From the NCBI GenBank assembly GCA_029834535.1, contig JAQMWT010000564.1, positions 1 through 64,000 of the forward strand: a stretch of DNA of 64,000 nucleotides, read 5' to 3'. The number at the start of each line of letters is the position of its first letter. Position 1 is the stretch's first letter. Below, one piece after another: positions 1 to 47,756 of this stretch. The stretch comes from Chrysophaeum taylorii (taxonomy: Eukaryota; Sar; Pelagophyceae; Pelagomonadales; Pelagomonadaceae). Made by a program: the position numbers and the translations under genes. The notes beneath the pieces were generated by a model that was given only the letters and a program-made list of their open reading frames with translations, made no database searches and was not told where the DNA came from.

Positions 1-290
1 TTAGGCGGCATTAGCATCTTTCGAATGTTGAGAGCAGAGGAGCAGATGCGATGCTGGCGGCGTGGCCCTGGTGCAGAGCGCTGACACTGATGAGGAACAT
101 CAAGGTGCTGGACATGTTGGCTGTGGCGTGAGCCGTGGATTGCTCCTGCTGGTATTTCCAGTTGCGACCATACTCTGATGCGATAATGCGTCTGTGAAGA
201 GTTTTCCATCGTCAACACGCTTTCACGATACGATAGAGTTGATCCTCAGGGATGCGGAATCCACGTTCGTCCTTGAGATATGCTTTGAGC

Positions 291-1990
291 TTATCGCTCT
301 GGTTGCGATGCACGAGAACTGGAGTAAAACCTGAATCGTCGAGAACAACGAACAACCTCTAGGCGATCTTTTCGTTTAGGCATCGGAATGCTACCATCCG
401 GCGGAGGTGGCCGGTTGAGGAACGAAAAATCCTGTTCAGGTGTCGCGTCGCTGACGGGACTTGAATCAGCAGCGGGAGTTGGATCCGGTTCTTGGTGTTC
501 GTCGTCATCGCTAGGTTTATCAGCGTGCTTGTCTTCGTGAGTCTCGCCCTCATTTTGCGATTCCTGTCTAACTTCCGGCATTTGCTGTTCGCTTATAGCT
601 GGTAGCTGGTCCTCTTGTGTTGCCTTTGTTGGAATCTGTGCGAGTGCTTTGATCCGTTCGATCTCCTTGTTACGGTTGACTGGCATGTCTGCGTCGACAT
701 GAAAGTCGTTAGAGGTGACGATTTTCCCATATCGCCCTTGATGTACAAGCAAGATAGAGCTGTGAACATCTCGAATAAATCGGTCCGTTCCGGGGAGGTT
801 CGGGAGATAGTTGTTACTATGAAAGTAAGAGGCGGAGACGCTGGAGGGTTCCAGCTTGTGACTTTGAGGGTAGACAAAAGTGACAGGTTCGCCAAAGGGG
901 AGAAGCTTCAAGAGCGGTGCCATGGGTGACATGATACGCCGGGGAACGGTGCATGTCATGTTTGTGCGCGAGGGCAGTCCATGAGAGCGCTGGTTGTCGG
1001 CTTGGATCTTATGCAGGAGAGCAAATGGGTGATAATACTCAGCGGCAATAGACTTTCCTTCGATGCGTACACTGCGAAGGTCGAGGAGACGAACCACGGT
1101 GCCTCGGGTGTTTTCCTTGATAATGTTTTCAGCAAAGTTCCGCTGGTGGAGGTGGCGACCAAGGATTTGGAATCGGAGACCAAGCTGCACCTTGAGGGGG
1201 TGGAAAGCTTCAGAGCGGAAAGTTGAGAATGCATCAGACGATATGATCTTCACATTGACATCGAATTCGACTTTAATCACATTGACCACATAGAGGATGC
1301 CGGCCAGAACATCCTGTGCGTCTAATTTCCGCAGGAAATAGACCCATTTGTGTGCTGACATAATACACACAAAGTGCATGATGTAGCGAAATCCGCCGTA
1401 GCACTTGCGGATGCTCGGGTATTATACATCCATGTGGAGGTGTTGGCCAGGAGCATAGGCCAGTTCATCCTTGGACCAGGAATTGTTCTTGTGACTGAAG
1501 CTTACATGCGATTGGCAGCGCTTGCATTCACTGCAGTCTTGCAGATACCGATCATCACCTGGGCGGAGATTCGTTACATTAGCGGCAATCGTGCGGCGAA
1601 GAATCTCGGGTTGCTGGTGGTGTATGCGGTGCCAGCGAGTGACCAAAAGCACTCTTTTGGCGTGCTGAATGGTGCCGGGCTGGTGCAAGGGAGGCAGAGC
1701 AGCAGTCGAAGCGCTGGGGGGGCTGGGTCGCTTGTCGACTCGGATTTTAGCAACGGTTGCCTCGGCAAGAAGCGTCTCGAGGTTTGTCGATTTGCTTGGT
1801 TTGCGGATCGCATCATGGTGAGCATCTGCAACGGCATTGAAGAGGGAGGTGAGGTTCAGGTCTTCCTCTGCTAAGAGACGGCTGGAGATGCTCATGAAGA
1901 ATTTTGCAACTTGGTTGATGTCACCGGGGCTGGGGATGCCATTGCGTATTGTTGCCCATTCGATGTGAAAGTTCACGTGGTGGTGCGATT
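291..1990 (-). pseudogene. pre-integrase zinc domain and integrase of element I
   Basis: From 1990 down, the frame carries a copia-type zinc-binding segment (WHRIHH followed by CSECKRC, near 1640-1520), then HLHMDV, the start of the integrase core with the first catalytic Asp. A single in-frame TAA at 1422-1424 interrupts the core; the same frame then continues with RYIMHFVCIMSAHKWVYFL-like sequence. The second Asp is in IISSDAF and the Glu in HQRNFAENI, giving a D, D, E arrangement. The C-terminal part becomes acidic and proline-rich after about 650. The frame is the same one used by the C-terminal half of the upstream methyltransferase, so both belonged to one pol polyprotein. Integrase assignment rests on the D-D-E pattern and flanking motifs; no RT is inside the window. 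Confidence 0.72.
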
Positions 1991-1999
1991 CGTGGAATG

Positions 2000-3640
2000 C
2001 GAGGACAGCGCTGTACTTTGCCTGCAGCATGTGGTGCGGGACGGCGTTGGCCAGTGCCTTGAACGCGAAGTACGGCGGGTGCTGTTTGAACAGTCGGAGC
2101 AGTTCCGGGTCCGAGTGGTGTCCAAACTTTGCGATTTCGTTGAGGGTCGCATAGCGGATGTGGTCTGGAGAGATCAGCAGCAGCAGGCGTTGGTAGCTCG
2201 TGTTGGTGGGGTACGAGCCAGTGACCGAGTAGCACTTGGTGCTCTTCTGAAGCGTGTCTCCGATGTGGCCGACATAGTCCGCGTACGTGGGACGTGCTTT
2301 GGACATAATGAGTCCCTTGGGTCATCGAGAGCAATTCGCCTTGTGAGTCGATCGCGGCAAAGCCAGGATGCGAACGATTCATATAGTGGACCCAAGTGGA
2401 CGGGCGCGAACAGCTGTGAGCGGCGGCCAAGGAGGTGGTGTAAGCGACGACCAGAAAGGCGGTGCCCTTGGGAACATCCAGGGAAAAGGAGTGCGTTGGG
2501 GAGAAGACTGCGGGTTGATGGGAACAGTCCAAAATTTGAGGGGCCTGGAATGTAGTGTGAGGGAGGCGCGCGATAAGTATCCACATGCAACTGCAGGAGC
2601 GGCGGTGCCGGTGATGGCTCCGTCCAAATGGTAAGCACATTGAGACTCGGAGGCATGAAAACTGCGGATGGTGTTCCAAGCGGCGAGAGTGGGGTGTTGC
2701 GACAAATGGTTGTGCAGGAGTGTGAAAACCAGGAGGTGGGATATGGACGCCATTGCGGCGTAGGGGGTGCCGTCGGCATCTAGACCGAGCTCCGTGAAGG
2801 ACTTGGTGAGACGTGCGAGCATTTGGCAGATGCGGGCATTCTCGGAAATCGAGAGTTTCGAGGCGTTGGCGGGCTTGTAGGAGTAGGTGGCCTTGTGCTG
2901 GTAGTAGTCCAATGTGGAGCGGGGCACTGTACCACGAAGGGCGGGTTTGGCGATCCAGAGATCGTCAGGGATGGTGTGACTGGGGTCCAGGAGAGGAACC
3001 ATGCTCGGAGGCGAGGTTAACCAAGGAGAGGCGGTTTTCTCGAGGTTGTAGCCGGTGAGCGGGTGCCGGGCATACACAGCGAGATAGCGTGTCTTGCTGA
3101 TGACGTCACCAAAAGCAGAGGCATTGTAGACGCCGGAGTGGCGGAAGTAGCCTAAGCGCTGGTAACCTTTGGCGAGTTGAGCATACTCGTGGTGAGTTCG
3201 TGGGTTGGGAGGTACGTTCTCGACAATGGCATAGGCCGGGAGCGTGCAACAACGAAGCGGATTTGTTCTTTGACGGAAAGGTCGGCGGTGACCGGAGTGG
3301 CATAGCCGTCGTATTCTTTCATTACACTCGGATGTTGGCAGGGCAGTGTAAAAGCTGCCAGGTCGAATGTAGGGAGTCGTATTTTGCCGGTTTGGAGTGC
3401 GGCATTGAGTTTTCTGAGGTCCGCATAGTGCTGGGCGTGCGGGAAGAGTTGTTGCGCACGGGTGCGCAGGATATCGTTGATTTCGCAGGTGACCACGACA
3501 GTAAGGCGTTTGTCGAATCGTTTGCGAAAGGTGTCGAAACCTTCCTGGTGAAGTCCACCTGCAACAATGGCTGTTTTGAGCAGAGGGACTGGTGTTTGCA
3601 CGGAGAGGTCTGCTGAGCCATTGAAGGCGTAGTGGACGAC
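2000..3640 (-). pseudogene. C5-cytosine DNA methyltransferase domain inside pol of element I
   Basis: Ordered C5-MTase motifs are readable: a motif I-like GGLHQEGFDTF (3559-3527), motif II TCEIND (about 3490-3473), motif IV FTLPCQ with the catalytic Cys (3349-3335), motif VI AIVENVP (ENV at 3221-3213), motif VIII YQRLGY...VYNASAFG (about 3150-3085), motif IX RYATLNEIAKFG (2156-2121) and motif X ALANAVP (2057-2037). Such enzymes transfer a methyl group from SAM to cytosine C5. The segment between VIII and IX (the target-recognition region) is long, over 250 residues, and contains a second motif IX-like stretch. Lesions: one frameshift between motifs IV and VI, and TGA stops at 2379-2381 and 2322-2324. 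From motif VI on it shares one frame with the integrase. Motif I and the PQ of motif VIII are degraded, so this copy is probably inactive. Confidence 0.8.
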
Positions 3641-3842
3641 AGGATGTTCGAGGTTGAGCAGTTCGCTGAGATATAGAGAATGGTTCTGTAACTTAGCGAA
3701 ATCGAGCATGTGCGATTGTGAGCGTGTCTTTGCGACATGCTGTGTGATGTGTGCAAGCTCGTCATTGAGTGACATTCGTTTTCTTGCGTGGAAACTGAGC
3801 ATAGTGGCGAATGTTTGCTTTGGCTGGGATGGCAGGGACAAC

Positions 3843-3932
3843 AGGCCGTTTGGTTTGCGAGTGGCGAGTACGACGGCGGTCTTTCCTAGGCCGTTTGGTT
3901 TGCGAGTGGCGAGTACGACGGCGGTCTTTCCT
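3843..3932 (-). repeat. 45-bp perfect tandem duplication in element I pol
   Basis: Two adjacent 45-bp copies (3843-3887 and 3888-3932) are identical. On the minus strand they encode the same 15 residues (LGKTAVVLATRKPNG) twice in frame, between the protease end and the methyltransferase. A recent slip duplication is the simplest reading. Confidence 0.9.
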
Positions 3933-3972
3933 AGAAGTGTTGCATAATCGTGGGGGTCTGAGGTTGAGGACT

Positions 3973-4503
3973 TTAGAAGCTCATAGAGGTAGCGCTCGTG
4001 GGGCAGTGGCGGATCTGTTGCTTGTACATGTAGAGCTTTGAGCTGAGATGTTGCGATAACCTGAACACCTTGCCCGAATTGCGGGACGACCATAAATACG
4101 AGACATAAAGCGTAACCGGTTTTGTCTTTTGTATCCTTTGAAGAGAGACCTGCAGCCTGCAGATACAACGGTTTAACACCGATGAAGTGGCTGGTGAGGG
4201 TGCCTCGTCCCATATGAATGGTGTGTTCGGAATTCGGCGTATGGTCTCAGGGACAAAGTTTTGAATTGTGCGCGTAAAGCAAAAAGATGCGCCACCGTCA
4301 ATCAATGAGGTTTCGGTGCCGGGTCCATTGCATCCGTGCAGCGAGTTAGTCTTCTTTGAGGTCTTTCCTGGAGTGTAATTTGGCACAAAGAAATCTGCGA
4401 CTTTGGGCGAGATAGTTGATGGGGTCGGGAAATTCGTCATTTTGAGGTTTGGTGCCTGATGGAGTAAGGTGTGGTTGGCGCCACAGGCGTCGTAGGCAAC
4501 CAT
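3973..4503 (-). pseudogene. aspartic protease region of element I
   Basis: The 176-codon minus-strand frame contains ETSLIDGGASFCF near its middle, with the presumed catalytic Asp at 4299-4297. This matches the D-[ST]-G-A signature of retroelement proteases with Gly in place of Ser/Thr. A neighbouring frame (from 4213) continues with VFMVVPQFGQGVQVIATSQL, resembling the copia protease C-terminus (VxYVPxLxxNLLSxxQL). The two halves are in different frames, so at least one frameshift lies near 4220. It sits between gag and the methyltransferase, as expected. DGG instead of DSG/DTG may reflect decay. Confidence 0.6.
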
Positions 4504-6013
4504 CAGCGAAAAAGCCGACTCTGGCGGAGAGCACGCATGTAGTCACTGTGACGTTTTGCGAAGTCTTCGGCGGAGTCTGCTTCATCATTGGTTTCGGGAA
4601 TGGTGTCGTCGTAGAGGTCTAGCTGACCGTTGTCGTCATATAAACCGAGGTGTCCTTTGTCGTCTTGTTCATCGGTGTCGGCTTCGCCCTCATCAGGTGG
4701 ATTGTCCTGGGGATCGGACGTTAACATCTGGAGGAATTCGGCGGCGTCGTTTTAGTATCTCGTCGGAGATGGTGGTGATGAGGTTGATTAGCTTGTTCAT
4801 TCGCCCGGAGCTGGACGTATGTTGGACCGGCTTGGCTAAGATTCCGTGTGGTTTGGAGCTTGCGACGGACTTCACGAAGGGGGACTTTGAAGAGCTGGTC
4901 AGGAGTAGATGGTTTTGGTGGATGAGGTTGTGTGGGGAAAGTGACCTTGCGAAGATGCGGGTGCTCGCGTTTGTCAGGGGTGACAGGAGGAGCGCGGGGA
5001 CGGTGCTTGTTCTTCGGTGGGGTGACAGGGGTGGCCTTGGGCTTAGGACTGTCATTGATGTCGTTGTAAGACGGGGAGCGAGGATTAGGAGGCTTTTTGC
5101 TTGGAGGGGGCTTCTTGAGGTGCCGCGAAATTTGCTTCTTGCGGTAGGCATGGAGGTGGTGAATGAGGTCATTGTCTTCCTCTTGATCAAGGTTGGCGTC
5201 CGTGAGAAAAACAGCGACGGGGTCGGTGTCTTCAACGGGGTCCGGTGGGGTGTCGTCTTCAGAGGGAGAGGTGTCATCATCGTCTTCGGTGAGGTGGAGA
5301 CCATGACGGCGGGAGCGAAAGCGGGGGTTGTCTTTGTCCTTTGTTGGCAGACGACCAAAGTCCGTAACGAAGCGCAAAGGCTTGAAGTTGAGAGTTGGGT
5401 GAGGCTTGAGGTGAGCCCAAAAGTTGCGCTCAAACGTCGAAATGACGGTGATGCGAGCGATGAGCTTAGGAAGGTGGTGGATGGCTTCCTTGTCTTCGTC
5501 GAGTAATAGCGAGTCGTTGGGATTGCGCAGACAGTTAGCAAGACGTGCAAAGCCTTTGATGTGTGTTTGGGCGCGGGAGTCAAGCAAGCTTGGGGGGTAC
5601 TTGAAGCGAAGAATTTGGTGAATTTCTTCGAGGATCTTGTCGTCGGGAAGTTGGAGAGAAGCTTCGGTGGTTATCTGGCGCAGTTGTTGCTGGACATGAC
5701 GCATGTAGTCGATGTAGTGAGCAGGCTCATTCATGTATTTCGGGGTTGAACGGCGTGTCCAGAAAGCCATTATATACACAATGCGCATGATGGATGTGGT
5801 TCTGGCCCGTGTGCTTGTCGAGTGCTAGGCGAACTTGAAGCACAAATTCGAGTCCTATCGGGTAGGAGGATCCGAGTGCATCGATTTCGTCGTATGCTGG
5901 GTGCTTGACGGAGTCGCTACCGGCATGTAGGAAACGGCGAAATAGGGGGTGTATGGTCTCGCGGAGATATACGATGAAGTCGGCTTCTTTTCCTTGGAGA
6001 TGGGGTTGAGTGA
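4503..6013 (-). pseudogene. gag, C-terminal two thirds (element I)
   Basis: A reading frame from the Helitron junction at 6013 continues through a 355-codon open frame (5788-4721). The segment with YIDYMRHVQQQLRQI and LPDDKILEEIHQIL is clearly homologous to the gag frame at 17555-18163 (YFDYMPHLEQQL, LSDEEILKTIHKIL). It is followed by a Lys/Pro/Arg-rich stretch and an acidic tail (about 4727-4510) before the protease. No zinc knuckle is seen. The upstream part of the same gag lies beyond the Helitron at 8224-8987. A one-base frame difference exists across the Helitron junction. Confidence 0.65.
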
Positions 6014-6047
6014 TCCTTACTACTAATCGACAGATGTTTGTCTGTCT

Positions 6048-6193
6048 GTCTGTTTGTCTTTAAATGTCGACTGCTAAGAGGGGGGTGTGTGTGGGGAGCA
6101 TGAAGGATGTGGGTGGGTCTGTCTGTTTGTCTTTAAATGTCGACTGCTAAGAGGGGGGTGTATGTGGGGAGCATGAAGGATGTGGGTGGGTTT
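6048..6193 (+). repeat. 73-bp tandem duplication near the Helitron A 5' end
   Basis: Two copies of a 73-bp unit (from 6048 and from 6121) differ by very few bases. The unit starts in a TGTC/TTTG microsatellite and ends with GGATGTGGGTGGG. It is absent from Helitrons B and C, so it arose in this copy. Confidence 0.85.
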
Positions 6194-6252
6194 GTGGGGT
6201 TTGTTCCTCGATTTAGGGTAAGGATCAGGTAGGCCCGCGAGCCAGGCAGGCA

Positions 6253-6867
6253 TTGATCCTCCAGGCCGTCTACGGCGACCTCGCAGACTGTTTCCACGAC
6301 CCACGGCGGCTCTTTCAGCGCGCCATTCTCACGCCCCGTCGAAACGATGTTGTCGATGCTGTCAACGCGCGCATGACCGCGGCCTTTTTTTCCCGGAGAC
6401 GAGGCGTCGGAGTTCTTTTCGGCCGACTAGGTTGGGTCGGAAGACGACGCCTCGCTCTCAATAGTCGAGTTTTGAACTCCCTGACAACCAACGGCATGCT
6501 GACTTTGATCGCGAGCTTAAACTCTTCGCAACCTCGACCCGTCGCACGGCCACTGCAACGGTACCAGATACATGATCGATCGTGTCGTTGTCACCGAGGC
6601 TCCTCCAACCTGTATCCCTTAAGGCCCGCCGACGCCAAACGATCACCAAGAGCCAGGGCCAGACGCCCCGCGAGGTCGGCGTCCTCTTGGCGAAGCCCGT
6701 CTTCTGCCACGTCCAGCTCGACGTGGCTCTCTGTCGATCGGCAACCCCGAGGATATCCTCTTCTTGGTCGACGACTCCACCCTACTCCACACGTGCTCCG
6801 CAATACCGATAAGCCCCCTCCCGGCGTCTACGCGCGCACTGTAAGTGAACTTACTGGGACCAGGTGA
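6253..6867 (+). pseudogene. PIF1-type helicase C-terminal fragment in Helitron A
   Basis: The open frame begins with LQAVYGDLADCFHDPRRLFQ and AILTPRRNDVVDAVNARM, the region that follows the core motifs in Helitron PIF1 helicases. A second frame (about 6640-6740) gives SQGQTPREVGVLLAKPVF and HVQLDVALCRS, matching helicase motifs V and VI (normally KSQGQT and QLYVALSR). The N-terminal helicase half with Walker A and B, and any Rep domain, are missing. At least one frameshift separates the two parts. The same fragment occurs at 7257-7871 and 42061-42655, so it is the fixed payload of this small family. Confidence 0.75.
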
Positions 6868-6959
6868 ACTTACTGGGGTTTGAGATTGGGACTAGGTGAA
6901 TATAGTAACCAGGTGAACTTACTGGGACCAGGTGAACTTACTGGGGGTTTTAGAGTAAA

Positions 6960-7994
6960 CAAGTGCAGGCCAGTAAGTTCACCTACTCCCAATCTCTAAC
7001 CCCAGTAAGTTCACCTGGTCCCAGTAAGTTTCATATAAGTTCACCTGGTCAGTAAGTTCACCTAGCTCACACCAACAACTCCTTTGAGCTCGTCGCTCTC
7101 GCCTCCGCCAATCTAAGCTGCTTTGATCCGCACGCGCCGCCAACCTTTGAGTTTACTCTAAAAACCCTTTACTCTAAAAACCCCAGTATGTTCACCTGGT
7201 CCCAGTTTCACCTGGTCACTCAGTTCACCTAGTCCCAATCTCTAACCCCAGTAAGTTCACGTGGTCCCAGTAAGTTCACCTATAGTGCGCGTGTAGACGC
7301 CGGGAGGGGGCTTATCGGTATTGCGCAGCACGTGTGGGGTAGGGTGGAGTCGTCGACCCAGATGAGTATATCCTCGGGGATGCCGATCGACAGAGAGCCA
7401 CGTAGAGCTGGACGTGGCAGAAGACGGGCTTGGGAAAGAGGACGCCGACCTCGCGGGGCGTCTGGCCCTGGCTCTTGTTGATCGTTTGGCGTAGGCGGGC
7501 CTTAAGGGATACAGGTTGGAGGAGCCTCGGTGACAACGACACGATCGATCATGTATCTGGTACCGTTGCAGTGGCCGTGCGACGGGTCGAGGTTGCGAAG
7601 AGTTTAAGCTCGCGATCAAAGTCAGCATGCCGTTGGTTGTCAGGGAGTTCAAAACTCGACTATTGAGAGCGAGGCGTCGTCTTCCGACCCAACCTAGTCG
7701 GCCGAAAAGAACTCCGACGCCTCGTCTCCGGGAAAAAAAGGCCGCGGTCATGCGCGCGTTGACAGCATCGACAACATCGTTTCGACGGGGCGTGAGAATG
7801 GCGCGCTGAAAGAGCCGCCGCGGGTCGTGGAAATAGTCTGCGAGGTCGCCGTAGACGGCTTGGAGGATCACTGTCTGGCTCTCGCGCCTACCTGGTCCTT
7901 ACTCTCGGGCCTACCTGACCCTTACCCTAAATCGAGGGACAGACAGACAAACAGACAAACAAACAAACAAACATCTGTCGATTAGTAGTTAAGA
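6960..7994 (-). mobile_element. Helitron B, inserted in reverse inside Helitron A
   Basis: Read on the minus strand it starts TCTTAACTACTAATCGA at 7994 and ends CCTGCACTTG at 6960, 1035 bp in all. The surrounding copy A reads TTTTAGAGTAAA before it and CTCAAAGG after it, exactly the joined sequence found uninterrupted in Helitron C (about 42778-42798). The insertion therefore added no bases and made no target duplication, the expected outcome of Helitron insertion. This gives the ends of the family to the base. Confidence 0.85.
7257..7871 (-). pseudogene. PIF1-type helicase C-terminal fragment in Helitron B
   Basis: Nearly identical on the minus strand to the fragment at 6253-6867, including AILTPRRNDVVDAVNARM and, in another frame, INKSQGQTPREVGVLFPKPV followed by HVQLYVALCRS. 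Motif V (KSQGQT) is better kept here than in copy A. Only the C-terminal third of a PIF1 helicase is present, without Walker motifs, so the element depended on proteins from another Helitron. Confidence 0.78.
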
Positions 7995-8223
7995 CTCAAA
8001 GGTTAGCGGCGTGTGCGGATCAAAGCAGCTTATATTGGCGGAGGCGAGAGCGACGAGCTCGAAGGAGTGGTGTGAGCACGAGTAGGTTTACGCCGAACTT
8101 AATGGGGTTAGAGATTTTGACTAGGTGAACTTACTGACCAGGTGAACTTACTGGGACCAGGTGACCAGGTGAACTTACTGGGGTTAGAGATTGGGACTAG
8201 GTGAACTTACTGGCCTGCACTTG

Positions 8224-8520
8224 TCGGATATAACTTGCCCTTTCGTCATATCGGTCGGGTCCTTGTCTTTGGCTTTGAGTTCTTGGGGCTTTGGCTCGTA
8301 GACGTTGTCCAGGAAGTGCTTGCCGAACTTGCGGTAGACACCCTTGTAGTAGACGTAACGGCCTTGGGAATCTGGCGTGTTCCCGGTGGTAGAGTGGTTG
8401 TCGGGGTCCTTGTCGTATTCGTCGATACAGTGGCTTAGGGGGGCGTCAGCGAGATCATTAGATCCCCGCAGGACGGATTCCCACGTGTAGCAGCCCTGTA
8501 TGAAGTACTGAGTTATACCT
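8224..8520 (-). pseudogene. gag middle segment (element I), upstream of the Helitron
   Basis: On the minus strand an open segment encodes sequence such as DLADAPLSHCIDEYDKDP and GRYVYYKGVYRKFGKHFLDN, ending at the Helitron A junction. It links the N-terminal gag frame (8987-8523) with the rest of gag beyond 6013. The homologous gag at 17555-18163 lacks this part, so that copy has an internal deletion. No named domain is recognised; a capsid-like role is inferred from position only. Confidence 0.5.
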
Positions 8521-8522
8521 GT

Positions 8523-8987
8523 CTAAGGCACCCGGTGTTCGACGAACAATTGCATGACGCGAAACGAAAGCATATGGGGTGTGACTTGAGCGTTGTCCAT
8601 TGACTTGAGGACGGCGCTGGGTGGGTCACTAAAGGTGTTAACCTTTGACTTGGGATCTCGTTGAGCCGGAGTGGGAGGCGGAGCCGCAGCAGCGACGGCA
8701 GGTGGTGGTGCTTGCGTTGCTTGGGCGGTCAACGCGTTGAATTGAGCATTGAATTGTGCCATCAAGCGGGCTTCTTGGTCTTGCATCTCTTGTTTATGCC
8801 GAGCTTCGTACGCTTGAGCTTGTTGTTGCATGTCTCTTTGGTACTTGGCTTCTAAGCGAGCTTCTTGTTCTCTTATCTCCTTTTGGAGTTCTTGATTGGT
8901 TGGCATTTTGCTTGGGTTCAGGAACGTCAGTGAGCGGGGCTTGTCTGGGAATCCTGAGGCTCTGCTGATACCGGGACTGGTGCCCAA
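8523..8987 (-). pseudogene. gag N-terminal region with coiled coil (element I)
   Basis: The 154-codon frame starts a few bases inside the LTR boundary. It contains a Gln/Glu/Arg-rich coiled-coil stretch (NQELQKEIREQEARLEAKYQ and repeats of EARxxxQMQxQ type), then an Ala/Pro/Gln-rich linker, then PPSAVLKSMDNAQVTPHML. The last part aligns with LPSPILQALKNAQLTPQML in the gag at 17555-18163, which identifies the family. The frame ends at a TAA at 8523; homologous gag sequence continues just downstream in another frame. Confidence 0.6.
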
Positions 8988-8991
8988 TACC

Positions 8992-9187
8992 TAGAGAACA
9001 GTAATCACAACTGTGTTACCCTTCAGCAGAGCGTGAGAACAGTGGTAGTCTGTCCTCGAATCTGTCTCTTAATCGAGGACAGCCGGTGTGAACAACACAG
9101 TGTTTTCTTAAATCAAAAGGTGGCAAGGTTAAGAGAACTAACCCTATAATAGGGGGTACTAACCGTAATTCAGATTTTCTATCTCTA
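8992..9187 (-). repeat. 5' LTR of element I (alpha family)
   Basis: This 196-bp sequence, read on the minus strand from TAGAGATAGAAAAT to TTACTGTTCTCTA, recurs at 17210-17387 and 60464-60647. It lies directly upstream of gag. After the LTR end comes GGTATTGGGCACCAGTCC, similar to GGTTTGGACCCAGTCC after the second copy and probably a primer-binding site. The ends are TAGAGA...TCTCTA rather than TG...CA. The outer flank is a SINE cut off in its 3' tail. Confidence 0.75.
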
Positions 9188-9520
9188 GCCAGGCCGGACC
9201 GGCAGGAGCCGGTACGGGATCTCAGAGCGAAATCACGCAGCTGGGGCAGAGACGAAGGGCGAGGAGTGTTGATGGCGGACCGCCACTGCACACGGTCTTG
9301 TGCGAGGTCGTGCAAAAACGTCGCAGGCCGCGAACGTGTTGGTCCACGAACAATCGACCTGTCCGTCGCGTTCTGCTCAACCGCGCGAACCCCATCCCAG
9401 CGCGGACTTTCCGGTTGCTAACCGGCCAGCCCGGGAGGCGAGCAGGCACCGTCTCACTCCGGGACGGCCGGGGCCGCCGCAGGGAGCAAGCGTGGTAGGC
9501 GCCGTCCTCCATCGCAACCA
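9188..9520 (-). mobile_element. SINE-like retroposon, subfamily R2, tail truncated
   Basis: Closely similar to 37256-37637. It shares the head GGTTGCGATGGAGGACGG and the last part before the tail (GGAGCC...CCGGCC) with subfamily R1 copies, but has a different middle. The expected tail of CTTCAGACC and (CTAA)n is missing because the LTR of element I starts at that point; the LTR element therefore landed in this SINE. Confidence 0.65.
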
Positions 9521-9618
9521 GACAGTTAGCGATCGCAGGGTTGGTGACTCTATGCCACTTGGGGTTAGTGAAGTAGAGGGATTGGGTGCAGACTCAGACA
9601 ATTGGTCTGCCCCCTACT

Positions 9619-17554: not shown

Positions 17555-18163
17555 ATGAGAAAACAACTTGCAAAAAGCAACCCCAACAACATGGCGACTC
17601 ATGACCCCAATGTCACGAGCCTGGAATTCGCGAAGCAATTCGCTACCACAACCGTTCACGCGGACACCCCCCTTCAAAGACAAAGTCAACAAGACGTCGC
17701 TTACGAGCTCCCCAGCCCTATCCTTCAGGCGTTGAAAAACGCTCAACTCACCCCACAGATGCTCGCCCACTACATCTTCAATACGTACCAAGACAAACCA
17801 CATCAAAGAGCATATTCTCTGGCTCGTTACTTCGACTATATGCCGCATCTCGAACAGCAGCTCTCACAGTCCACAGCCTACACCTCTATACACCTCAGCG
17901 ATGAAGAGATACTCAAAACTATCCACAAAATACTGCTCTCACGTAATACGCCTAGCATCGTCACCGCCCGGTTCATCACCTGGCCAACGTACCGAAAGCC
18001 TGATACATACACAGAGGCACTCATTCGTCTCGGCGACTGCCTCCGTACCCCTTACGCGTATCACCTTCTTGTCTACGACAAAGCAGCGATCAACGATCTC
18101 AACAAGCTGGCCAAAGGACCCACTCCATATCCGCCACGGGGTTATCGCACTGGCACAATGTGA
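17555..18163 (+). CDS. gag of element IV
   Basis: The 202-residue frame starts at ATG 17555, about 170 bp after the LTR. SPILQALKNAQLTPQMLAHY matches the end of the N-terminal gag frame of element I. YFDYMPHLEQQLSQS, LSDEEILKTIHKILL and EALIRLGDCLRTPYAYHLLV match the segment of element I gag near 5700-5480. The roughly 120 residues present between these blocks in element I are absent here, so this is an internally deleted gag. The end at 18163 is probably a frameshift, as related Pro-rich sequence follows. It encodes a presumed capsid-like RNA-packaging protein; no zinc knuckle is seen. Confidence 0.55.
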   Translation: MRKQLAKSNPNNMATHDPNVTSLEFAKQFATTTVHADTPLQRQSQQDVAYELPSPILQALKNAQLTPQMLAHYIFNTYQDKPHQRAYSLARYFDYMPHLEQQLSQSTAYTSIHLSDEEILKTIHKILLSRNTPSIVTARFITWPTYRKPDTYTEALIRLGDCLRTPYAYHLLVYDKAAINDLNKLAKGPTPYPPRGYRTGTM

Positions 18164-24585: not shown

Positions 24586-25818
24586 GTGAACATGGCAACT
24601 TGCTCGCGCCACAACGACCAAACACCAACGTTCGCATCAAACCTGTTTACGCCTGTTTTTGATTCTGTCGACTCCGACCATCGTCATAACCTGGTCACCA
24701 TGCAACATATCTGCCAGCGTTCTCATCAGACGTCTGGTACACCGCCGTCAGATATACCAGCCTGTGTTCCCGCTATCTTTGCCCCCGCTGCGATTCTCAG
24801 TGGCAACAATCGCCTAACGCAAGTCTTACCAGGCACCTTTGTCGCTATTGTTCTTCAGACCTCGATTTTGGTGACAGTTTCGCTTAGCTGCCCCATTTTC
24901 GAGTTGTTCTTCCACTCTTGCCCGATTTTCACCTGTTCTTCCGCTGTTGCCCCCTTGTCCCCTGTGTTTGACGAGAATGCGCCAGTTTCACTGGGACTGA
25001 TCACCCCATCACGTGAGCCGACCCATTATCCGAGCTCAAATCAGAAGAAACCAACAAACCCTGCAAAAAAAAGTCAAAGTCGAGCAAAGCAGAGCCGACA
25101 ACAGAACCCAAACCCTCCTGAGAAAAGTGCAAAACAAAGTCGACCAAAACAGAGCCGACAAAGCAAAGTCGACCGTCAAGTCGACAAAAACATCAACAAT
25201 ACTAGCGTTTTGCCACAACGCAAGAAGGCACTGTACGCAAAGTCTATGCGTCAATCCCCTGTCGAATCTGTGTCATCTTGTCATTCCCTGTATGTCAATT
25301 ATGCTAGCTTTCGTTTGTTAGTCCATTATGTTTTCCTTCCCCTCTGTATCGCACACTCCTTTGTTCATCCCCAATATGTCGAGGCACGTCGTGTCCTATA
25401 TTCAGCAACTGAAGAAGCACCTCAATTAGCCAAAGAATATCATATATGTACTTTGAAGTGGGTCCTCCGAAGAACTACGAATCTGGTCGCTTCATGTCCT
25501 ACAGTCGCCAATATTGTCACTATACGCTTTTTCCTCACTTTTATTGCCGTTCACGACAGGGATTTACACAAGTTAGACGTCAGCTCTGCTTTCATACAAG
25601 CACCAATCGCAGAAGATATCTATGTCTGGCCACCCGAAAACCCAAATATGGCTCTACGCTCCTTTACAAACTACGCCGCTCTTGGTGCGACTGCAAACAA
25701 GCTCGTCGAAACTGATGTGTTTACTTGGAGCGCTTCCTTGTCAATGATTGTGGTTTCGTCCGCGGATCTGGTGACACTTGCAGCTACGAACTCTTGCTTA
25801 ATTCCACTGTCGTACTGA
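24586..25818 (+). pseudogene. copia integrase/reverse transcriptase remnant
   Basis: A 410-codon stretch is open but collapsed compared with the better copy. PAAILSGNN matches the integrase end (PAAILTGDK). SAVAPLSPVFDENAPVSLGL and VESVSSCHSLYV follow, then RT parts ICTLKWVLRR, FLTFIAVHDRDLHKLDVSSA and FIQAPIAEDIYVWPPE. The RT block between LRR and IVTIRFF, including the segment ARLVVRGY of the other copy, is deleted. The catalytic YVDD-like site is absent. A Lys/Gln/Ser-rich insertion (KKSQSRAKQSRQQ) lies at about 25060-25200. Confidence 0.65.
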
Positions 25819-26581: not shown

Positions 26582-27709
26582 ATGAAAGGGATGATTCTGG
26601 AAGTTCGTCGGGAAGAAATGAGTTTTGTAAAGATATTGCAAAGAATGGAAAAAAGCAGATTGTGTAGGTTTGGAAGTGCGAATATGGTGAATGTGACGAA
26701 GAGGGATGCGGAGAGGGCTGCGCCGCAAGTAACGCCGAAGAAGATGGCGAAGCGGTGCGTAGAAAGCGGTGAGAGCGTCATCAAGATGGTGGTGGCGAGG
26801 AAGGAGCTGAGGGGTGATATGCGCCTCGCCGTGTTGTTCGTCGGTTTCGCGCACGATAGTAAGCTGAACGAGTGTGCGAAGCGCGTGTTTGGGAAGTACG
26901 AGGTGTGGGGTGGCGGCGACTTGAAGAGTGGCCATCGCGAGGGGAACGTGTTCCTGCGAGCGAGGAAGGCGACGTTGCAGTATTCTGCGGAATATGTGGC
27001 GTGGAAGGGAGACGCGAAGTTTGATGCGGTGTGTCGGAGAGCCGGAGAGTTGCTCGATATGAAGAAGGCGTTGCAGCTCGAGTTGCATGCGGCGGGGTTT
27101 TTCGACGAGGTGCGGGAGGCCGTGGAGGAGTTTGCTGGACAGACGAAGTCGCGGTTGGAGCTCGTGGACAATGGCGAGTTCGTGCTCGGAGGGGCGACGG
27201 GTTTTCGGTTGGGGTCGTGCGCGCCAGGGTCGTTCACGATGACGCGCCTTGTGAAGGACGACGGTAAGGGTTTTGAAGCTGTGGCGGTCACCGTGGAAGG
27301 GAAGGTTTGGTGTGTGTCGAAGCAGGTGAATGATGCGATTCCGGGGGATGTTGTTGGGACCGACGTGCCGCACTGCCCGGAGCTCGTCTGGGTTTACAAT
27401 AACAGGCCGTTTCACTTCGGCGTTCTGCCGCCAAGGGTGGCAGGGAAGTTCCGCGCAGCCATGAAGGGCGTTGGCTTCGAGTTCGAGGAGGACAAGTCCC
27501 AGGAGGTTCAAGATGGAGTTGAACGGCGAAGGAGACTGGATTTGTTACTGCTGCTATTGGATTTTTGTTCCCTGCTTTGCCCCTGCTTGCGCGCGCGTTT
27601 CTGTATTTTTTTTTGTTTTGTGTTTCGGTTCGTGGCAGTACGACGTAACGAGAGTTATGAAGTATTGACGTGGACACGAGTGGGGGCGAGCGAGAGGGGT
27701 GGGGCGTGA
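26582..27709 (+). CDS. unrecognised protein on the opposite strand at the Helitron 3' side
   Basis: A 375-codon frame; the first 310 residues have a normal soluble-protein composition (ELRGDMRLAVLFVGFAHDSK, KRVFGKYEVWGGGDLKSGHR, AGELLDMKKALQLELHAAGF). The last 60 residues become Leu/Cys/Phe-rich and are probably not native. The antisense frame over the same stretch is Pro/His/Leu-rich and looks like a shadow. It is convergent with the PIF1 gene of the neighbouring Helitron, so it may be cargo or a second Helitron gene. I recognise no domain. Splitting into VTVEGKVWCVSKQVNDAIPG and VGTDVPHCPELVWVYNNRPF suggests a beta-rich C-terminal part. Confidence 0.45.
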   Translation: MKGMILEVRREEMSFVKILQRMEKSRLCRFGSANMVNVTKRDAERAAPQVTPKKMAKRCVESGESVIKMVVARKELRGDMRLAVLFVGFAHDSKLNECAKRVFGKYEVWGGGDLKSGHREGNVFLRARKATLQYSAEYVAWKGDAKFDAVCRRAGELLDMKKALQLELHAAGFFDEVREAVEEFAGQTKSRLELVDNGEFVLGGATGFRLGSCAPGSFTMTRLVKDDGKGFEAVAVTVEGKVWCVSKQVNDAIPGDVVGTDVPHCPELVWVYNNRPFHFGVLPPRVAGKFRAAMKGVGFEFEEDKSQEVQDGVERRRRLDLLLLLLDFCSLLCPCLRARFCIFFCFVFRFVAVRRNESYEVLTWTRVGASERGGA

Positions 27710-30700
27710 TTGGTGTCGGTTCGTGGCAGCGTGGGAGGGAGGATTGGTGCGGGTGCGGGTGTGGTTTTCTGTCTCGTTTTTCGAGGCGTGTTGTGGGGTC
27801 GGGGGTCGCGTCGTTTGGCATGGCGTTTTTTTTCGGCTTCGAGGTCCGCGACGCGGCAGGCGTAGGCGTCGCTCGCTTTTTCGGGGTTCCAGCAGCGGTT
27901 GCTGTCGTAGCCGTGGAGCCACGCGTGGAGGTGCGCGTTGTGGCGAAGCTCGACGAGCGCGTCGATTGCGCGGTCGTCTTTCATCAAGAAGCGGAGGCCG
28001 GCGCGTGTGGTCACGCGGGAGACGAGGACGTAGAAGGCCACGAGTGTCATCCACGGGAGTTTTTTGCGGTGTGGGAGGTTGATGACGAGGCGCGGGAGCG
28101 TGCGACCTTGCAGCTTGTAGTCTGCGAGGGCGAAAGCGAGCATGTGCGTGTGGCACCTGGCTTTTGGGGTTGCCTCGATGTTGTTTGCGGCCGCCGTCTT
28201 CGAGTAGAGGTCGACCTGGACTGGTTTTTTGCCGACGAGGAAGGGCACTACCTGGCCGTCGGCGTCGTCGAGGACGGGGCCGTGGGGGGGTCTGAGGGTG
28301 GTGTCGTTGTTGTTGGCTATGAAGCCGGTGCCCAAGTCGTCTTCGTAGTCTGGGAGCGGGATGCCGTGCCACGAGGGACGAGGGGGGGAGGCGGGCGGCG
28401 TCGAGGTGGGGGGAGCGTCGTTGTCGGTTTGCGTCCGTGCTCTCGCGACCTTGCTTCCGACGTGAACCATGAAGGCGACCGGCGGTTCGTCGAGTTTGAC
28501 GATGGTGAAGCCGCCGTGGGCGTAGGCGCGTTCGAGGGCGTCGGGGATCGTGTCGTCGGCGAAGGAGAGTGCCTCGAGAAGACCTGGGGTGCCGTTGACG
28601 ACGCGCCTCTTTGATTTGAAGGTGAAGGTGACGGTGATCAAAACGGGCGCGCCTTCGACGAAGTACCCCCAGAGCACCGGCTCGGCGTCGTATATGACGT
28701 CGTCGTCCTCGACGTTGGCGAGGACGCCGTCGAAATCGAGTGGGAGCCGCCATTTGACTAGGGGGAGCCCGCAGAAAGCGGCGAATTTGTGGAGGAAGTC
28801 GATGTTGATGGTGTCTCGCTCGGCGTGGTTTAAGACGCCGACGGGGGCGAAAGCCCAGCGCGCTCGGACGTGTCGTCGGCGGAGAGCGTTGGGATGCTGT
28901 CGACGAATGCGCGGGGTATCGGGGCTGTGCTCGTGGTACCGCGCATGGCGAGCATCGCGTCGATGAAGGGTGGGTCGTGGACGGCGCGCATGATGCGCGT
29001 GAGCTCGAAGACGGGGGCCGCCGCGAGTATGCGGAGGCCGGCGCTCGTTGCGTGTCGCGACGTTTCCATGGTCGACGAGGGCGCGAGGGCCCGGTTGACC
29101 ATGGTTTTGTACCAATCCTCTCCTGCGCGCGGGCGGTGGTGAAGATCGAGGAGCAGGTTCGTCGTCGGGGGCGACGCGGCGCACCTCCGGGCATGGGCTC
29201 CTGGAAATTGTCGCCGGCGAGGAGCACGGGGATGCCCCCGAAGGGGACGTCCCACGCTCCGGTGAGCGCGCGGGCGCAGGCGTCGACGTGGCCGATGAGG
29301 GCCGCGTCGACGAAGGAGATCTCGTCGATGACGAGGCCGGCGATGTCGTCGTAGGTGACGCCGCAGAGGGCTTGGAACTTGGTTCTGGCCTCGTGTTGTT
29401 TGCTGCCGGTGAAGGACGAGCGGTCGGGCACATGGCGAGGGCGGGCGATGCCTAGGTCGAAGAGCGAGAGGAGCGTGGCCGCGCCGAAGGCTGCGGCCGA
29501 CACGCCCGTGTACCCCGTGCAGACGATGTGGCCGAGGCCTTCTTCGACGGCTCTTCTGGAGGATTCGATGACGGCGGATTTGCCCGTGCCGCCGGCGCCC
29601 ATGAGCAAGGTGACGAGGCTGAGGTCGTTGTGCTTCACGATCGTCGCCGCCTCTCGTAGCGTGTACTTGTCGCGCAGCCCCGTTTCGCTAACGCGCAGAC
29701 ACGTGTACCAGTAGCGGCCGACGATGCGCTGTTCTGGATTGAGCGGGGCGCTGCAGCGCGTGCTGTTTGCGGCGTCCTCGCGCCACGCGCGCGAGAGCTC
29801 GTGCCAGCGGGCGTCGTCGATTTCGGCGAACTGCGCCGGCGTGGCGATGTTGGCGATGATGGTGGCGGCCGTGGACGCGACGTCGTCCCCGAGGCGTGGT
29901 GTCGCGCCGCCGCCGACGCCGCGGAGGGCGGTGGTGGCGTCGCCGGGGCGGATTCGCGGTTTGGGCGGGATTGGGGCGCACATCGCGCGCGCGGCTTCCT
30001 CGGGGTTCTTTGCGTAGGTGTGTTTGGCGAAGGTGCGCCGCGAGGCGGCGAGAGCTGCGAGAGGCCACGCGGCGGTGGCGCGCGCGGCGCGGTCGCTCGC
30101 GGTGCAGTCGCCCGCGAGGGCCGCGCGTTGCGTTGCGGCGAGCGAGAGCGGCGCGCGAGGGATCGTTGCGGCGAGGGTGGCGAAGAACGCGTCGAGGTCG
30201 ACGGCGCGTTGGAGTCTCGTGGCCATGCCCGGCGCGTTGGCCATCTTTTCGCGGTGCGCCTGCGCTTTGTTAATCGTGGCGGCGCCGTCGTGGTTGACGT
30301 CGGTGTTGGACGCGAAGTTTGCCGTCGGAGCGGCTCCGGGATGGTCGGCCCAGAGCGTGCGTTGGCGCCCGCGATGGGCTCGGGGGAGGCGTGGCGATGT
30401 TCCGGTCGAGTCGGCGCCGCCGTCGCGCAGTGTGTTGATGGCGTGGATGCGGCCGGCGGCGACGGCGCGGCGCGTGGCGAGGCGTCGGCGACGTTCGTTT
30501 TCTTCACTGGGTGCGGAAGGCGATTCGTCGGGCTCGCGGTCCTCGAAGAGGCATGCCGTGTCCTGCAAGTGGGCGTAGTAGTCGTCGAACGCGTCGAGGG
30601 TGAGGTCGGGCGCGGCGTAGTCCTCGTGGTAAATCCACGGGGCGAACCATGCCGACGCGTAGAAGGCCCACCTTCGTCGGCTCTCGGGGTTGGTGCGATC

Positions 30701-31633
30701 TAGGGTTGGCGGTGCGTGGCCGGCGAGCTTGACGACGGCGCTCTTGCTTTTTCGGATGAACCAGTGGGAGGCGGCGAGGGGATGGCCGCGACGGAGCTCG
30801 AAGCGGCCGTTGGGCGGCCGGCCGGGGCGTCGTTTGCGTCGTGCCGTCGTCGCTGTCGACGCGGAGTGCGCTGTGTGGGCGTCGTTGGCGGCGTTGTCGT
30901 CGCCGTCGGCGTCCTCGGTATCGTCCGCTGCGGTGGTCAAGAGGAGAGGGTTGTCGGCGCTCGGGTGGTTCGTCTGCTTGCGTCGTTTTTCGAGGTCGAA
31001 CATCGCGTGGAATTCGAGTGCGGTCAGATACGCGAGGCGCGCGTCGCGGTAGGCGTACGTTTCGGCGTCCGTTTTGTGGATGGGCACGTAGATGCCGGTA
31101 GCGGGGTCGCGCATCCGGTACGTCTTGGAGCATCGGAAGGTCGTTGGAAGAGGATCGTCGCCGGCGGCGGCGCGCGTGAGGGCTGTCAAAGTCGCGTCGG
31201 GGGCGACGTCGTCGGCGGTGGCGGACGCGTCGTTTTCGGCATCGGCCGCGCGTTTTTCTTCGTCGTTGTCGGGATTGGCGACGTAGGCCGCTTCGGCGGC
31301 GGCGTAGGTTTGCGCGATGGCGGCGTCGGCGGGGCGGTCGTCGTCGTCGTCGTTGTTGGCGTGGCTCGAGGCGAGTGCGGCGGCCGCGGCTTTCGCAATC
31401 AAGGCGACGCGGACGTGGTCCCAGGGCGATCGGAAGATAAACGTCTCCGAAGCGAAAGACGACGCCTGTTGGAGGAGGATCGCGGCGCAAACCGACACCG
31501 GCATTACGTCTCGGCGGCGTTCGCGAGGCGTTGCGCGAGGTGTTGCGCGAAGCGCTCCGGCGTTCCGCTGTTCGCCGCCGTCGATTTGTGGGTCCGGACG
31601 TTCTCGTAGGCGTCGACGACGAGGCTCGCGCAA
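27655..31633 (-). pseudogene. PIF1-family helicase of the large Helitron
   Basis: Walker A is LLMGAGGTGKSAVIESS (about 29617-29570), Walker B is LVIDEISFVDAALIGHVDAC (about 29335-29280), and a motif III region reads FGGIPVLLAGDNFQEPMPGG. The frame then shifts (near 29190 and 28860): the middle part continues as LDLHHRPRAGEDWYKTMVNR, and the C-terminal part as ADYKLQGRTLPRLVINLP (motif V) and YVLVSRVTTRAGLRFL (motif VI). A roughly 600-residue N-terminal extension is rich in Ala, Asp and Arg. The enzyme unwinds DNA during rolling-circle transposition. Two frameshifts, or very short introns, interrupt it. Confidence 0.8.
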
Positions 31634-33384
31634 ATCTTGATTTCGTCGCCTTCCTTGGTCATGTATTTGAGGAGGTAGACGCCGACGGCTTTACCGCTCG
31701 TGCCCACACCGACGAGATACGGCACCGCGTTGCACCCCGCGAGGCCGCTGACGACGTCGTTTGCGTCGACTTGGTAGCCGTTATTGCACAAGAAGGCGAC
31801 GTTGACGAGGGCGTCGAGAAGCGCGCGCAAGTCGCGGACGTCTTTCGGGTTCTCGAGATCGGCTTTGGCGAGCTCGTCGAGGCGCGAAGCGAGCAGTTCG
31901 TGGCCGGGCGTCTTGGCGATCTCGGATAAGTCCTGGCCGTCGGCGAGAAGCATGCGGAGAAGCGCGCGGCGGTCCGCGTCGCCCTGGGGCGTGTCGTCGA
32001 AGTTGAGCCTGCCGTGGTGGCGAGCGGAGATCGCCGCGAGGAGCGCGCACGTGGGCGCGGACGACGGCGTGTCTTCCTCGACGGCGAGATCGAGGCGGCG
32101 GCGCTTCAAATCGAAGACGAGGACGCGCGGGTCTTTGACCTCGAAACTCGGCTGGCCCCTGGTCGCGGCGGGTTTGGGGTCGATGGTCGCGCGGACGCGG
32201 CCGTCGCCTACGTCGTCGCGTTTAATGCGGTGAGGTCGCGGCGCCGCGCGTCGGCTCGGCGGTCGATGTGACGCGGCCTGGTGAGTTCGCAGATGCGGCA
32301 CGCGATGCGGAGATCGTCGTGGTCGTCGTCGTCTTCGAGGTTCTCCATGAGGACGCGGCCCTCGTCGTCGCACGGCAAGTCTTCCGTCTGGCGGAACATC
32401 GTCGAGGCGTTGTTGTGGCTGCATTTGCAATGGAGGCGACATCCAGTCTTGCCGGCGGCGCCCTTTGTGCGCGTTTGGTGGTGGTGTTTGTCGTGGTTGT
32501 TTCGGTTGGTCCGCGTGAGGAGGGCGCTCTGCTTGAAAGCTGCGGGATCGTTGGGGATGGCGGCGGCGGCATCGCGGCGTGCTGCGAGCCGTAGAGCTGT
32601 GCGCGCCTCCGAGCCCGCGTGGAGCGCGAGCGGGAGCTCGCCCGAGACGTGCTTGTCGATGGCCGCGCAGAGGGCGGCGCGAAGGTCGTCGTGCTCGACG
32701 ACGTCGGCGATAAAAGCTGGAGTTGCGCCGCCGAAGAGTTTCATGTGGGAATGCAGCGAGTCGCGCTGGTTGGTCTCGCAGACGCCGAAGGCCCCGGCGA
32801 GGCGACCGAAAACGCCCTTGGGGCGGTGGCGAATGGGGAAATCGGCCTTGTCGTTGCCAGAAGGAACGGCAAGAACGTCCTCGACGACGAGGCGGAGGAG
32901 GAAGTCGAAGAGGAGTGCGCAGGAGACGGGGTTGTGTGCAGCTCGTTCTCGGATGGCGGTTTCCGTCATGTGGGTCTCGCGAACATGCCGGTCCGAGTCT
33001 TGCGACGCGCGCACCTGCGTAACGAAGACGTCGTCGTAGTCGGGCGCGTCCGAGGAAGGCAAGCGCTGGTAGCCGCGCCAGGGAAACATGAGGCGAGCGG
33101 CGACGAGGTTGTGGACGTCGTCCGGCGCGATCGTAAAGAAGTAGGAGGCGGCGCCGTAGTGACGAAGCGTCGCGAGGAGCGTCGTCATGTCGGCACGCCG
33201 CTGGGAGCCGGACCACGGTTGCTCGGAGGAGCCGAGGTGGACGAACTTCATGACTCTCGGGACGAGGTTGGCGGAATCTTGGCTGTCGGGGTTGGCGGCC
33301 ATCGCGCGGAGCTTGTCCCAGAACGAGGGGTCGGAAACAATGGCTTGTGGCCTTCGAACTGGTCCGACTTGACGCGGCCCGCAA
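31504..33384 (-). pseudogene. Rep (HUH endonuclease) region of the large Helitron
   Basis: SYFFTIAPDDVHNLVAARLM corresponds to the first Rep motif (FFTxSPxD). QRDSLHSHMKLFGG holds the HxH metal-binding motif (about 32770-32735), where most Helitrons have RGxxHxH. VYLLKYMTKE (about 31682-31655) is the third motif with two Tyr four residues apart, the expected catalytic tyrosines. A Cys/His-rich segment (TGCRLHCKCSHN) lies between. The protein nicks and joins DNA at the element ends. The frame is long and open from about 33350 to 32208 and again to 31504, with a shift between. Confidence 0.8.
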
Positions 33385-34018
33385 AGCCGCGGTTTATTGC
33401 GTGTCTCTTGATCGAATTGGCCGCGTAAGCGAGAAAGGAAAGATCGCGAGCGAAGCGGCCATCGGCGAAGAGGACCATGTGCCGATACGTGCCTCGGGGA
33501 ATACACTTGCCGCGGGGGAGGCCGCGTCCCCGCGGGAACAAGTGGGGCCACGCGCCGATGTATAAGTCGGGCGCGGACGCGTAGTCGTCGATCGGTGTGT
33601 CCGTACGGACGAGGGAAATCGACGGAGTAGGAGCGGCCGCGGGTGCGGCCGTCGCAGGCGCGGGAGGACCGGCACCTGGTATGGTGGGCATATCTGTGAC
33701 GTCTGCGCGAATATCTTCGTTGTCTGCGGCGTCCTCGGCGGGTTGGTCGTTGTCTACGTCGGGCGGGGTTTCGACCGTTGTGGTAACCGTCTTGATGATG
33801 GACCGGGCGACAGAACCCATGGTTTCTTGCGACGCCGGGAAAACGCCGACGTGCGACATTCCGGCGAGCGAGCGTCGTCGCTGGCGCTCGGCATTTTCCG
33901 GCGTCGCGCGCACGTCGGCGTCGTCGTCGTCCTCGAAGGTGGCGACGACGATGGCCGAGTTGTCGTCTGGAGCCTCGTCGGTGTCGTCGTTTTGGTTCTG
34001 GTGGACGGGGTCGTGCAC
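33248..34018 (-). pseudogene. Helitron-like N domain
   Basis: DLYIGAWPHLFPRGRGLPRG, GTYRHMVLFADGRFARDLSF and LAYAANSIKRHAINRG match the domain that precedes Rep in Helitron RepHel proteins (FPxLFPxG...yxrxLLxyxdrRFxxdxxF). The first 130 residues are acidic and Ala/Thr-rich. It is in the same phase as the upstream frame at 34879-34106, with two adjacent TGA codons between, and shifts before Rep. Confidence 0.65.
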
Positions 34019-34105
34019 GTTCGGGAACGATGGCTTTTCCGAGGGTGGTCTTTCGAGATCGTTGTCGTAGTTGTTTAGATGGCTGCCGTTGTCGTTTTGG
34101 GCTCA

Positions 34106-47676: not shown

Positions 47677-47756
47677 CTTCGCCCTGATATCTCCTGTCTC
47701 TTTCTGCCACAATGCCTCTACTGACGTCTTCCTTCAAGCGTCTCCTCCGTGAGCGT

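Follow-up and report, generated by a model that had tools for sequence, protein, structure and literature searches.

The stretch of DNA analysed here, called the window, comprises bases 1-64000 of contig C564 (JAQMWT010000564.1) in the genome of the pelagophyte Chrysophaeum taylorii (70.8 Mb in 697 contigs). Our analysis confirms that it begins with a decayed Ty1/Copia long terminal repeat (LTR) retrotransposon whose Pol polyprotein includes a C5 cytosine methyltransferase (MTase), in the order protease, C5-MTase, integrase, reverse transcriptase (RT) and RNase H. This anatomy, the in-frame fusion, the retention of the catalytic residues and purifying selection are shown by the sequences described below. 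From them we infer an old MTase, kept under selection and probably active on the element's own DNA. With moderate confidence, we favour the reading that the Pol MTase of this Copia clade marks the DNA of the element encoding it.

The window copy can be laid out against a well-kept sister copy on contig C96, L010, to which it is 94.5% identical in DNA over window 6014..1 (blastn). Its parts, with motifs numbered as in C5-MTases, are the following:

about 9188..1, minus strand: whole element, a decayed Copia copy that runs off the contig start
8980..9188, minus strand: 5' LTR remnant, approximate (blastn match of L010 959-1674 to window 9188-8443, 81.8%; L010 LTR at 960-1167)
8226..8658, minus strand: leader and start of gag (blastn match to L010 1676-2108, 89.6%)
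6015..8225, no strand assigned: insertion of ~2.2 kb in gag, with mirrored halves (gap between blastn matches; mirrored open reading frames, ORFs)
4506..6014, minus strand: gag in broken frames (tblastn with the 578-residue gag ORF of L010, four pieces, 85-96%)
4225..4542, minus strand: start of pol with the aspartic protease motif DGGAS (pol residues 1-106, 87.7%; DGGAS at residue 82 of L010 pol)
1932..3586, minus strand: C5-MTase domain, motifs I-X, in several frames (MTase profile matches)
3335..3343, minus strand: motif IV, PCQ, with the catalytic Cys (sequence reading and aligned column)
3213..3221, minus strand: motif VI, ENV, with the catalytic Glu (sequence reading and aligned column)
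360..1739, minus strand: pre-integrase and integrase (MTase-to-RT profile, 1.1e-131 at 360-1421 and 2.6e-46 at 1425-1739)
1..359, minus strand: linker after the integrase (weak profile pieces at 53-349)

The window copy has no RVT_2 domain because the element runs off the contig start, and the RT would lie beyond. An earlier note on this DNA had placed motifs IV, VI, VIII, IX and X in order on one strand between protease and integrase, and both reading and profile matches bear this out, on the minus strand. The domain starts at 3586, further upstream than motif IV; motif VIII reads SKTR and is followed by motif IX and by motif X, ANAVP, with the end near 1932. One phase is common to ORFs 2379-3692, 1422-2321 and 291-1421, with stops at 2379, 2322 and 1422, and a frameshift near 3240 puts motifs I-V in ORF 3152-4246, whose phase differs from that of ORF 2379-3692, and so divides the domain between frames. 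The shared phase from about 3240 to 291 that the note described stands with one refinement: by tblastn, window 2541-2332 aligns to the sister copy's open frame in a phase different from both of these, so that the stops at 2379 and 2322 lie inside or beside a locally out-of-frame stretch. The insertion at 6015-8225 holds two nearly identical ORFs, 6217-6867 on the plus strand and 7257-7898 on the minus strand, adjoined by simple-repeat-like stretches, and looks like an inverted-repeat element.

Pfam found DNA_methylase in none of the nine window ORFs, nor any other relevant match in them, and no integrase match in the ORF of the pre-integrase/integrase region. A genome-free MTase profile, which drew on six Pol proteins of the database (P0003, P0004, P0009, P0010, P0020 and P0024), matched three window ORFs (E 1.1e-18, 6.5e-14 and 8.4e-14) in order along them (model positions 25-132, 114-243 and 280-396), and reversed window ORFs gave no match to it up to E 10. 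A profile including two genome copies gave four pieces over 3586-1932 (1.9e-42, 3.2e-43, 1e-9 and 9.6e-48). The Pfam search for the MTase that the earlier note had put forward as a check thus failed in the window ORFs, where the genome-free profile succeeded, and it worked in the genome, where all 57 places listed for DNA_methylase exceed the Pfam cut-off. The absence of a significant DNA_methylase match, which the note had named as refuting its claim, is thus contradicted.

L010 carries the protease motif (residue 82), the MTase (302-859), the rve integrase region (1016-1110) and RVT_2 (1686-1933) in a single 1952-codon frame. Its Pfam values are 1.1e-7 for DNA_methylase (over the cut-off), 0.0061 for rve (below the cut-off) and 1.6e-38 for RVT_2 (PF07727). 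The rve match is below the cut-off wherever it is listed, in L010 and in relatives, and the integrase is read from this weak match together with an alignment; among Pfam matches up to E 1, the 1952-residue Pol has no Phage_integrase (tyrosine recombinase). We read a 578-residue frame that overlaps the start of the long frame as gag, and a 296-codon frame, separated from the long one by one in-frame stop, as RNase H. The LTRs, 208 and 196 bp long, begin with TAGAGA and end with TCTCTA (C96:60459-70083), and a 5-bp target duplication, CTCAC, stands on both outer sides. The central claim of the note, a C5-MTase built into a Copia pol, is confirmed. A second copy, L011, has an 1868-codon frame with DNA_methylase and RVT_2; these are the two copies, out of 18 examined, in which a single frame runs from protease motif through MTase and integrase region to RT. 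All nine aligned copies have a DNA_methylase match, for which they had been picked. The two LTR sequences (L010 960-1167 and L030 1389-1584) show 11 differences over 196 aligned bases (5.6%), rather high for so open a frame, and template switching or selection may explain it.

Searching the genome with the MTase gave at least 103 matches (97 of 686 candidates scored; the window copy is C564:2523-3251), and with the RT at least 145 (142 of 1389 candidates scored). Among the 64 best RT places out of 145, 41 have an MTase place upstream on the same strand: in 37 it is within 6.5 kb, 22 of them at 2.91-2.99 kb, and the other 4 come from the Pfam list. A broken window copy whose domain Pfam misses could suggest a chance fusion, that is, a retrotransposon that landed in or next to a methyltransferase gene of the host, or a join made in assembly. 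However, the same order recurs at these 41 places, in single open frames and in database proteins encoded on other contigs, and the genome-free profile finds the domain; together these rule out chance fusion or artefact, to which we assign a negligible probability. The MTase being itself a host gene was also considered and rejected. Two loci, on C634 and C621, match PF00145 over nearly the whole profile too, and look stand-alone. The C621 gene also has an SNF2 domain, and we take it to be DNMT5-like.

Further families in this genome carry the domain. Type B (L031 on C560), of which further copies were found, is 24% identical to L010 over the protease-MTase stretch (1e-21), with ECT as motif IV and EEM as motif VI. 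Type C (L042 on C42), first fetched as an ordinary RVT_2 match, has one 1691-codon frame with an MTase profile match of 124.5 bits, and its MTase part has at least 76 matches in the genome (71 of 1599 candidates scored). L041, the second RVT_2 locus whose upstream part was fetched, contains the MTase in two frames. Two loci, L032 (C445, a relative of type B) and L033 (C601), gave no MTase profile match: in L032 a stretch resembling, by eye, the last part of the MTase region of type B starts at about base 3154, with other sequence upstream, and in L033 the clade member is only a fragment, with other sequence adjoining. An abundant, unrelated repeat interrupts ORF 4793-7000 of L031 at about residues 610-736; this short sequence makes up 51 of the 62 matches of one search and also occurs at window 9269-9550 and 37276-37633.

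The fusion extends beyond this genome. When the RT part of L010 was used as query against a protein database, 120 of 1312 proteins were listed. Precomputed domains place PF00145 and PF07727 together in seven of the 120, all seven confirmed by our own scans. With the MTase profile, the domain is recognised in 14 of the 120 (lengths 1407-3300 residues), six of which built the profile; we take these proteins (sources ena and jgi) to be metagenomic. Over 123 rows, 17 matched the MTase profile at E<1e-16 and the remainder lay above E 1; of these 17, eight had gone into building the profile and nine had not. Protein searches with the MTase alone, among candidates limited by length and shared words, found no relatives, nor did the viral contigs searched. 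In P0022 (2207 residues) the MTase comes ahead of the protease motif, an arrangement that its sisters P0020 and P0024 do not share: either the domain order changed or the domain was gained anew.

In an RT tree of 54 rows (omitting P0006-P0008, four in five of P0025-P0120, most RT pieces of this genome and L032), one Copia clade of 29 rows, with support 100/100, contains all 21 rows labelled as MTase-bearing, a label given when the protein or locus of the row contains the domain. The other eight clade rows are three proteins that start nearer to the RT than the MTase position (P0005, P0011 and P0018), the fragment L033_504, and four loci of which only the RT was fetched (L043-L046); the MTase is thus present in every clade row for which the protease-integrase region is available (21 of 29). 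The profile finds no MTase in the 25 rows outside the clade (E above 1). Scoring the eight clade rows as lacking the domain, the tree requires eight label changes, five of them forced by starred branches.

A tree of 17 MTase domains agrees with the RT tree in its close groups; its deep branches are unresolved, and the program issued a long-branch warning. P0020, P0022 and P0024 are split from the other 14 by a long branch, a picture that fits one gain of the MTase in the clade as well as two. We consider it quite conceivable, if somewhat short of an even call, that the clade's MTases are not of one origin, and that the HaeIII-like domains of these three proteins replaced an earlier one, or joined, independently of the group of the window copy. 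Despite their long MTase branch, the RTs of the three nest beside P0013 and P0016 (96/95; 92/93), and the MTase of P0022 precedes the protease motif, both of which fit such a history; a single gain followed by fast change would, however, give the same picture, in a tree that carries a long-branch warning and is built without outside C5-MTases. This question concerns origin, not function, and either answer is compatible with an MTase that marks the element's own DNA.

Three lines of evidence bear on function. First, in an alignment of 38 sequences fitted to the profile (three are pieces of the window copy and 18 are close copies), the motif IV Cys, the motif VI Glu and the motif VIII Arg are each present in 36 of 36 scored rows, and the motif IX Glu in 27 of 28. 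Second, the ratio of nonsynonymous to synonymous substitution rates (dN/dS), pooled for the MTase, is 0.147 (7 rows and 21 pairs; of 18 copies, 8 were tried and L021 was then excluded because of stops), a value lowered by the picking of rows for open frames. The corresponding values are 0.134 for the MTase core (16 rows), 0.127 for the RT (8 rows) and 0.083 for the integrase (11 rows), and a protease set of 12 rows yielded no pooled value. The MTase is under purifying selection near the level of the RT, which answers positively the selection test across copies suggested by the note. Third, the domain of one relative, P0010, is predicted to have a C5-MTase fold: its model (predicted template modelling score 0.69, mean predicted local distance difference test score 63.5, poor at 191-288) retrieved with Foldseek only C5-MTases and relatives such as DNMT2 among the 50 PDB matches displayed (best E 7.4e-11). 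A profile of P0024, P0020 and P0010 matched M.HaeIII in the PDB at 2e-12, M.HhaI and DNMT2 near 2e-5 and DNMT1 at 0.05. No DNMT3 chain appeared at E<1 in two PDB profile searches, and the tree holds no outside C5-MTases.

Besides the choice of open-frame rows, several observations weigh against an MTase that marks the element's DNA. Most of the clade has an unusual motif I, and motif IV takes several forms (PCQ, PCT, PCI, PCE, TCQ, VCY, ECT, ECQ), so that the substrate may differ. The profile of family A matches only one PDB chain, 8yf3, at E 0.036. Between copies, C-to-T changes occur at 0.086 per site in CpG and 0.077 in CpH (H being any base other than G), which leaves no clear footprint of CpG methylation, although the observed/expected CpG ratio, 0.98-1.13 in 18 element loci, is lower than in the two host MTase loci (1.31 and 1.49). 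Finally, 23 of the best 64 RT places have no MTase place among the matches listed. Three of the 23 were inspected: one has an MTase (77%), one has gag at the expected MTase position, nearer to the RT than in L010 with some 2.3 kb missing, and one has no element. The conservation of gene order and phase in other copies, another check named in the earlier note, is thereby seen in part, with two of 18 copies in one frame and an MTase at 41 of 64 RT places. The best-kept copies thus do not bear out the note's other refuting condition, copies without the segment or with it in a different phase from integrase; the remaining 23 places keep this verdict provisional.

The degenerate motifs I and IV of several families (ECT, VCY), and a spacing between motifs VIII and IX that in family A has expanded to some 300 residues (L010 pol 471 to 789), might indicate a non-catalytic module that binds S-adenosyl methionine or DNA, for instance in nucleoprotein assembly or target choice. 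Families that share about a quarter of their residues nevertheless keep all three catalytic residues (Cys, Glu, Arg) in every one of the 36 rows scored, and we think such a module improbable. Barely more likely, in our view, is an MTase active on RNA, which would methylate the tRNA primer or the genomic RNA and thereby aid priming or RNA stability. DNMT2, which methylates tRNA-Asp, supplies several of the nearest structures (ranks 2, 5, 6, 9 and others) and of the profile matches (6fdf at 2e-5, 1g55 at 6.6e-5), and the absence of a clear CpG footprint would fit an RNA substrate. Against this, the three related domains have their best profile match in M.HaeIII (2e-12), which acts on DNA, and motif IV of the window's family is the DNA-type PCQ.

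The retained catalytic residues of relatives with open frames suggest instead that the elements may place chemical marks on their own DNA, a proposed function with published precedent in other element classes. Within the virus-like particle, the element's protease would release the MTase or leave it tethered; there it would methylate cytosines of the double-stranded complementary DNA (cDNA), or else cytosines of the fresh insertion, and new copies would then arrive already marked. Marking could quiet inserted copies, with low cost to the host and long survival, or could make them resemble methylated host DNA, and the host MTase-SNF2 gene on C621 could maintain the marks through cell division. 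More tentatively, this whole deep Copia branch, with several families here and elements in other assemblies, may possess a non-DNMT3 C5-MTase of its own as a fixed, essential replication enzyme for marking cDNA, an ancient core component and not a recent accessory capture; we hold this broader proposal to be possible but somewhat less likely than not.

The rest of the window holds further mobile elements or their remains:

42941-47700, plus strand: conventional Copia (gag_pre-integrs 1.2e-9, RVT_2 9.8e-35)
55946-58250, plus strand: region matched faintly by the MTase profile (3.1e-5 and 4.2e-4) and by Pol residues 432-591 at 26%
27557-34193, minus strand: Helitron-like element, G+C-rich part (Helitron_like_N 3.1e-13, PIF1 helicase 5.3e-8)
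17765-18109, plus strand: gag-like match (38.8% to L010 gag)
25504-25644: RT scrap (profile match)

The conventional Copia gave no MTase profile match and is a natural contrast to the MTase-bearing element. The faint matches at 55946-58250 are possibly a remnant of another MTase-Copia family, and the gag-like match and RT scrap may be what is left of another relative. Neither Rfam nor a tRNA scan gave a match in the window.

That transposons should carry the type of enzyme hosts use to silence them is a paradox. What a retroelement gains from methylating is testable here, with about a hundred or more matches of one family and, for comparison, conventional Copia elements that lack the domain, including the one in the window. 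The precedent invoked in the earlier note holds in that retrotransposon DNMTs are published, and needs correcting as to element class; the accessible part of PMC5890265 describes them in long interspersed nuclear element (LINE), DIRS and Gypsy classes, reports that they methylate CG de novo, and presents Symbiodinium Copia without any DNMT domain. In our literature search, no paper could be recognised from its title or abstract as reporting a Copia element with a C5-MTase. One clause in the accessible part of PMC12344493 mentions LTR Copia, which may be a slip or a further finding. On the best reading, retroelement MTases were already known from LINE, DIRS and Gypsy, and what is new here is their presence in Copia, clade-wide.

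Related domains match the bacterial C5-MTases M.HaeIII and M.HhaI in sequence and fold; those are stand-alone enzymes, whereas here the MTase is a Pol domain whose motif I is atypical and whose VIII-IX stretch is long in family A. The Copia type and its abundance in algal genomes are shared with CoDi and other algal Copia, for which the accessible parts of PMC3145265 and PMC9998398 mention no MTase domain. A Sola DNA transposon with an N4/N6 methyltransferase, according to what is available of PMC12477816, embodies an analogous idea with a different enzyme. As far as PMC5890265 could be consulted, KnitGypsy-Dnmt3 of Klebsormidium nitens is likewise an LTR retrotransposon with an intronless C5-MTase inside Pol, retained key residues and Ka/Ks under 0.2. 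It is, however, a Ty3/Gypsy element from one alga with a DNMT3-related MTase, whereas here RVT_2 is found, the integrase precedes the RT, and the two PDB profile searches gave no DNMT3 chain at E<1. SymbioDIRS-Dnmt3 and SymbioLINE-Dnmt of Symbiodinium, in the same partial source, are similar as retroelement-borne MTases with many copies and purifying selection; DIRS has a tyrosine recombinase and LINE is not an LTR element, whereas ours has LTRs, an rve-like integrase region and RVT_2. The published cases, so far as that source goes, are separate captures, whereas here the MTase accompanies a whole Copia clade.

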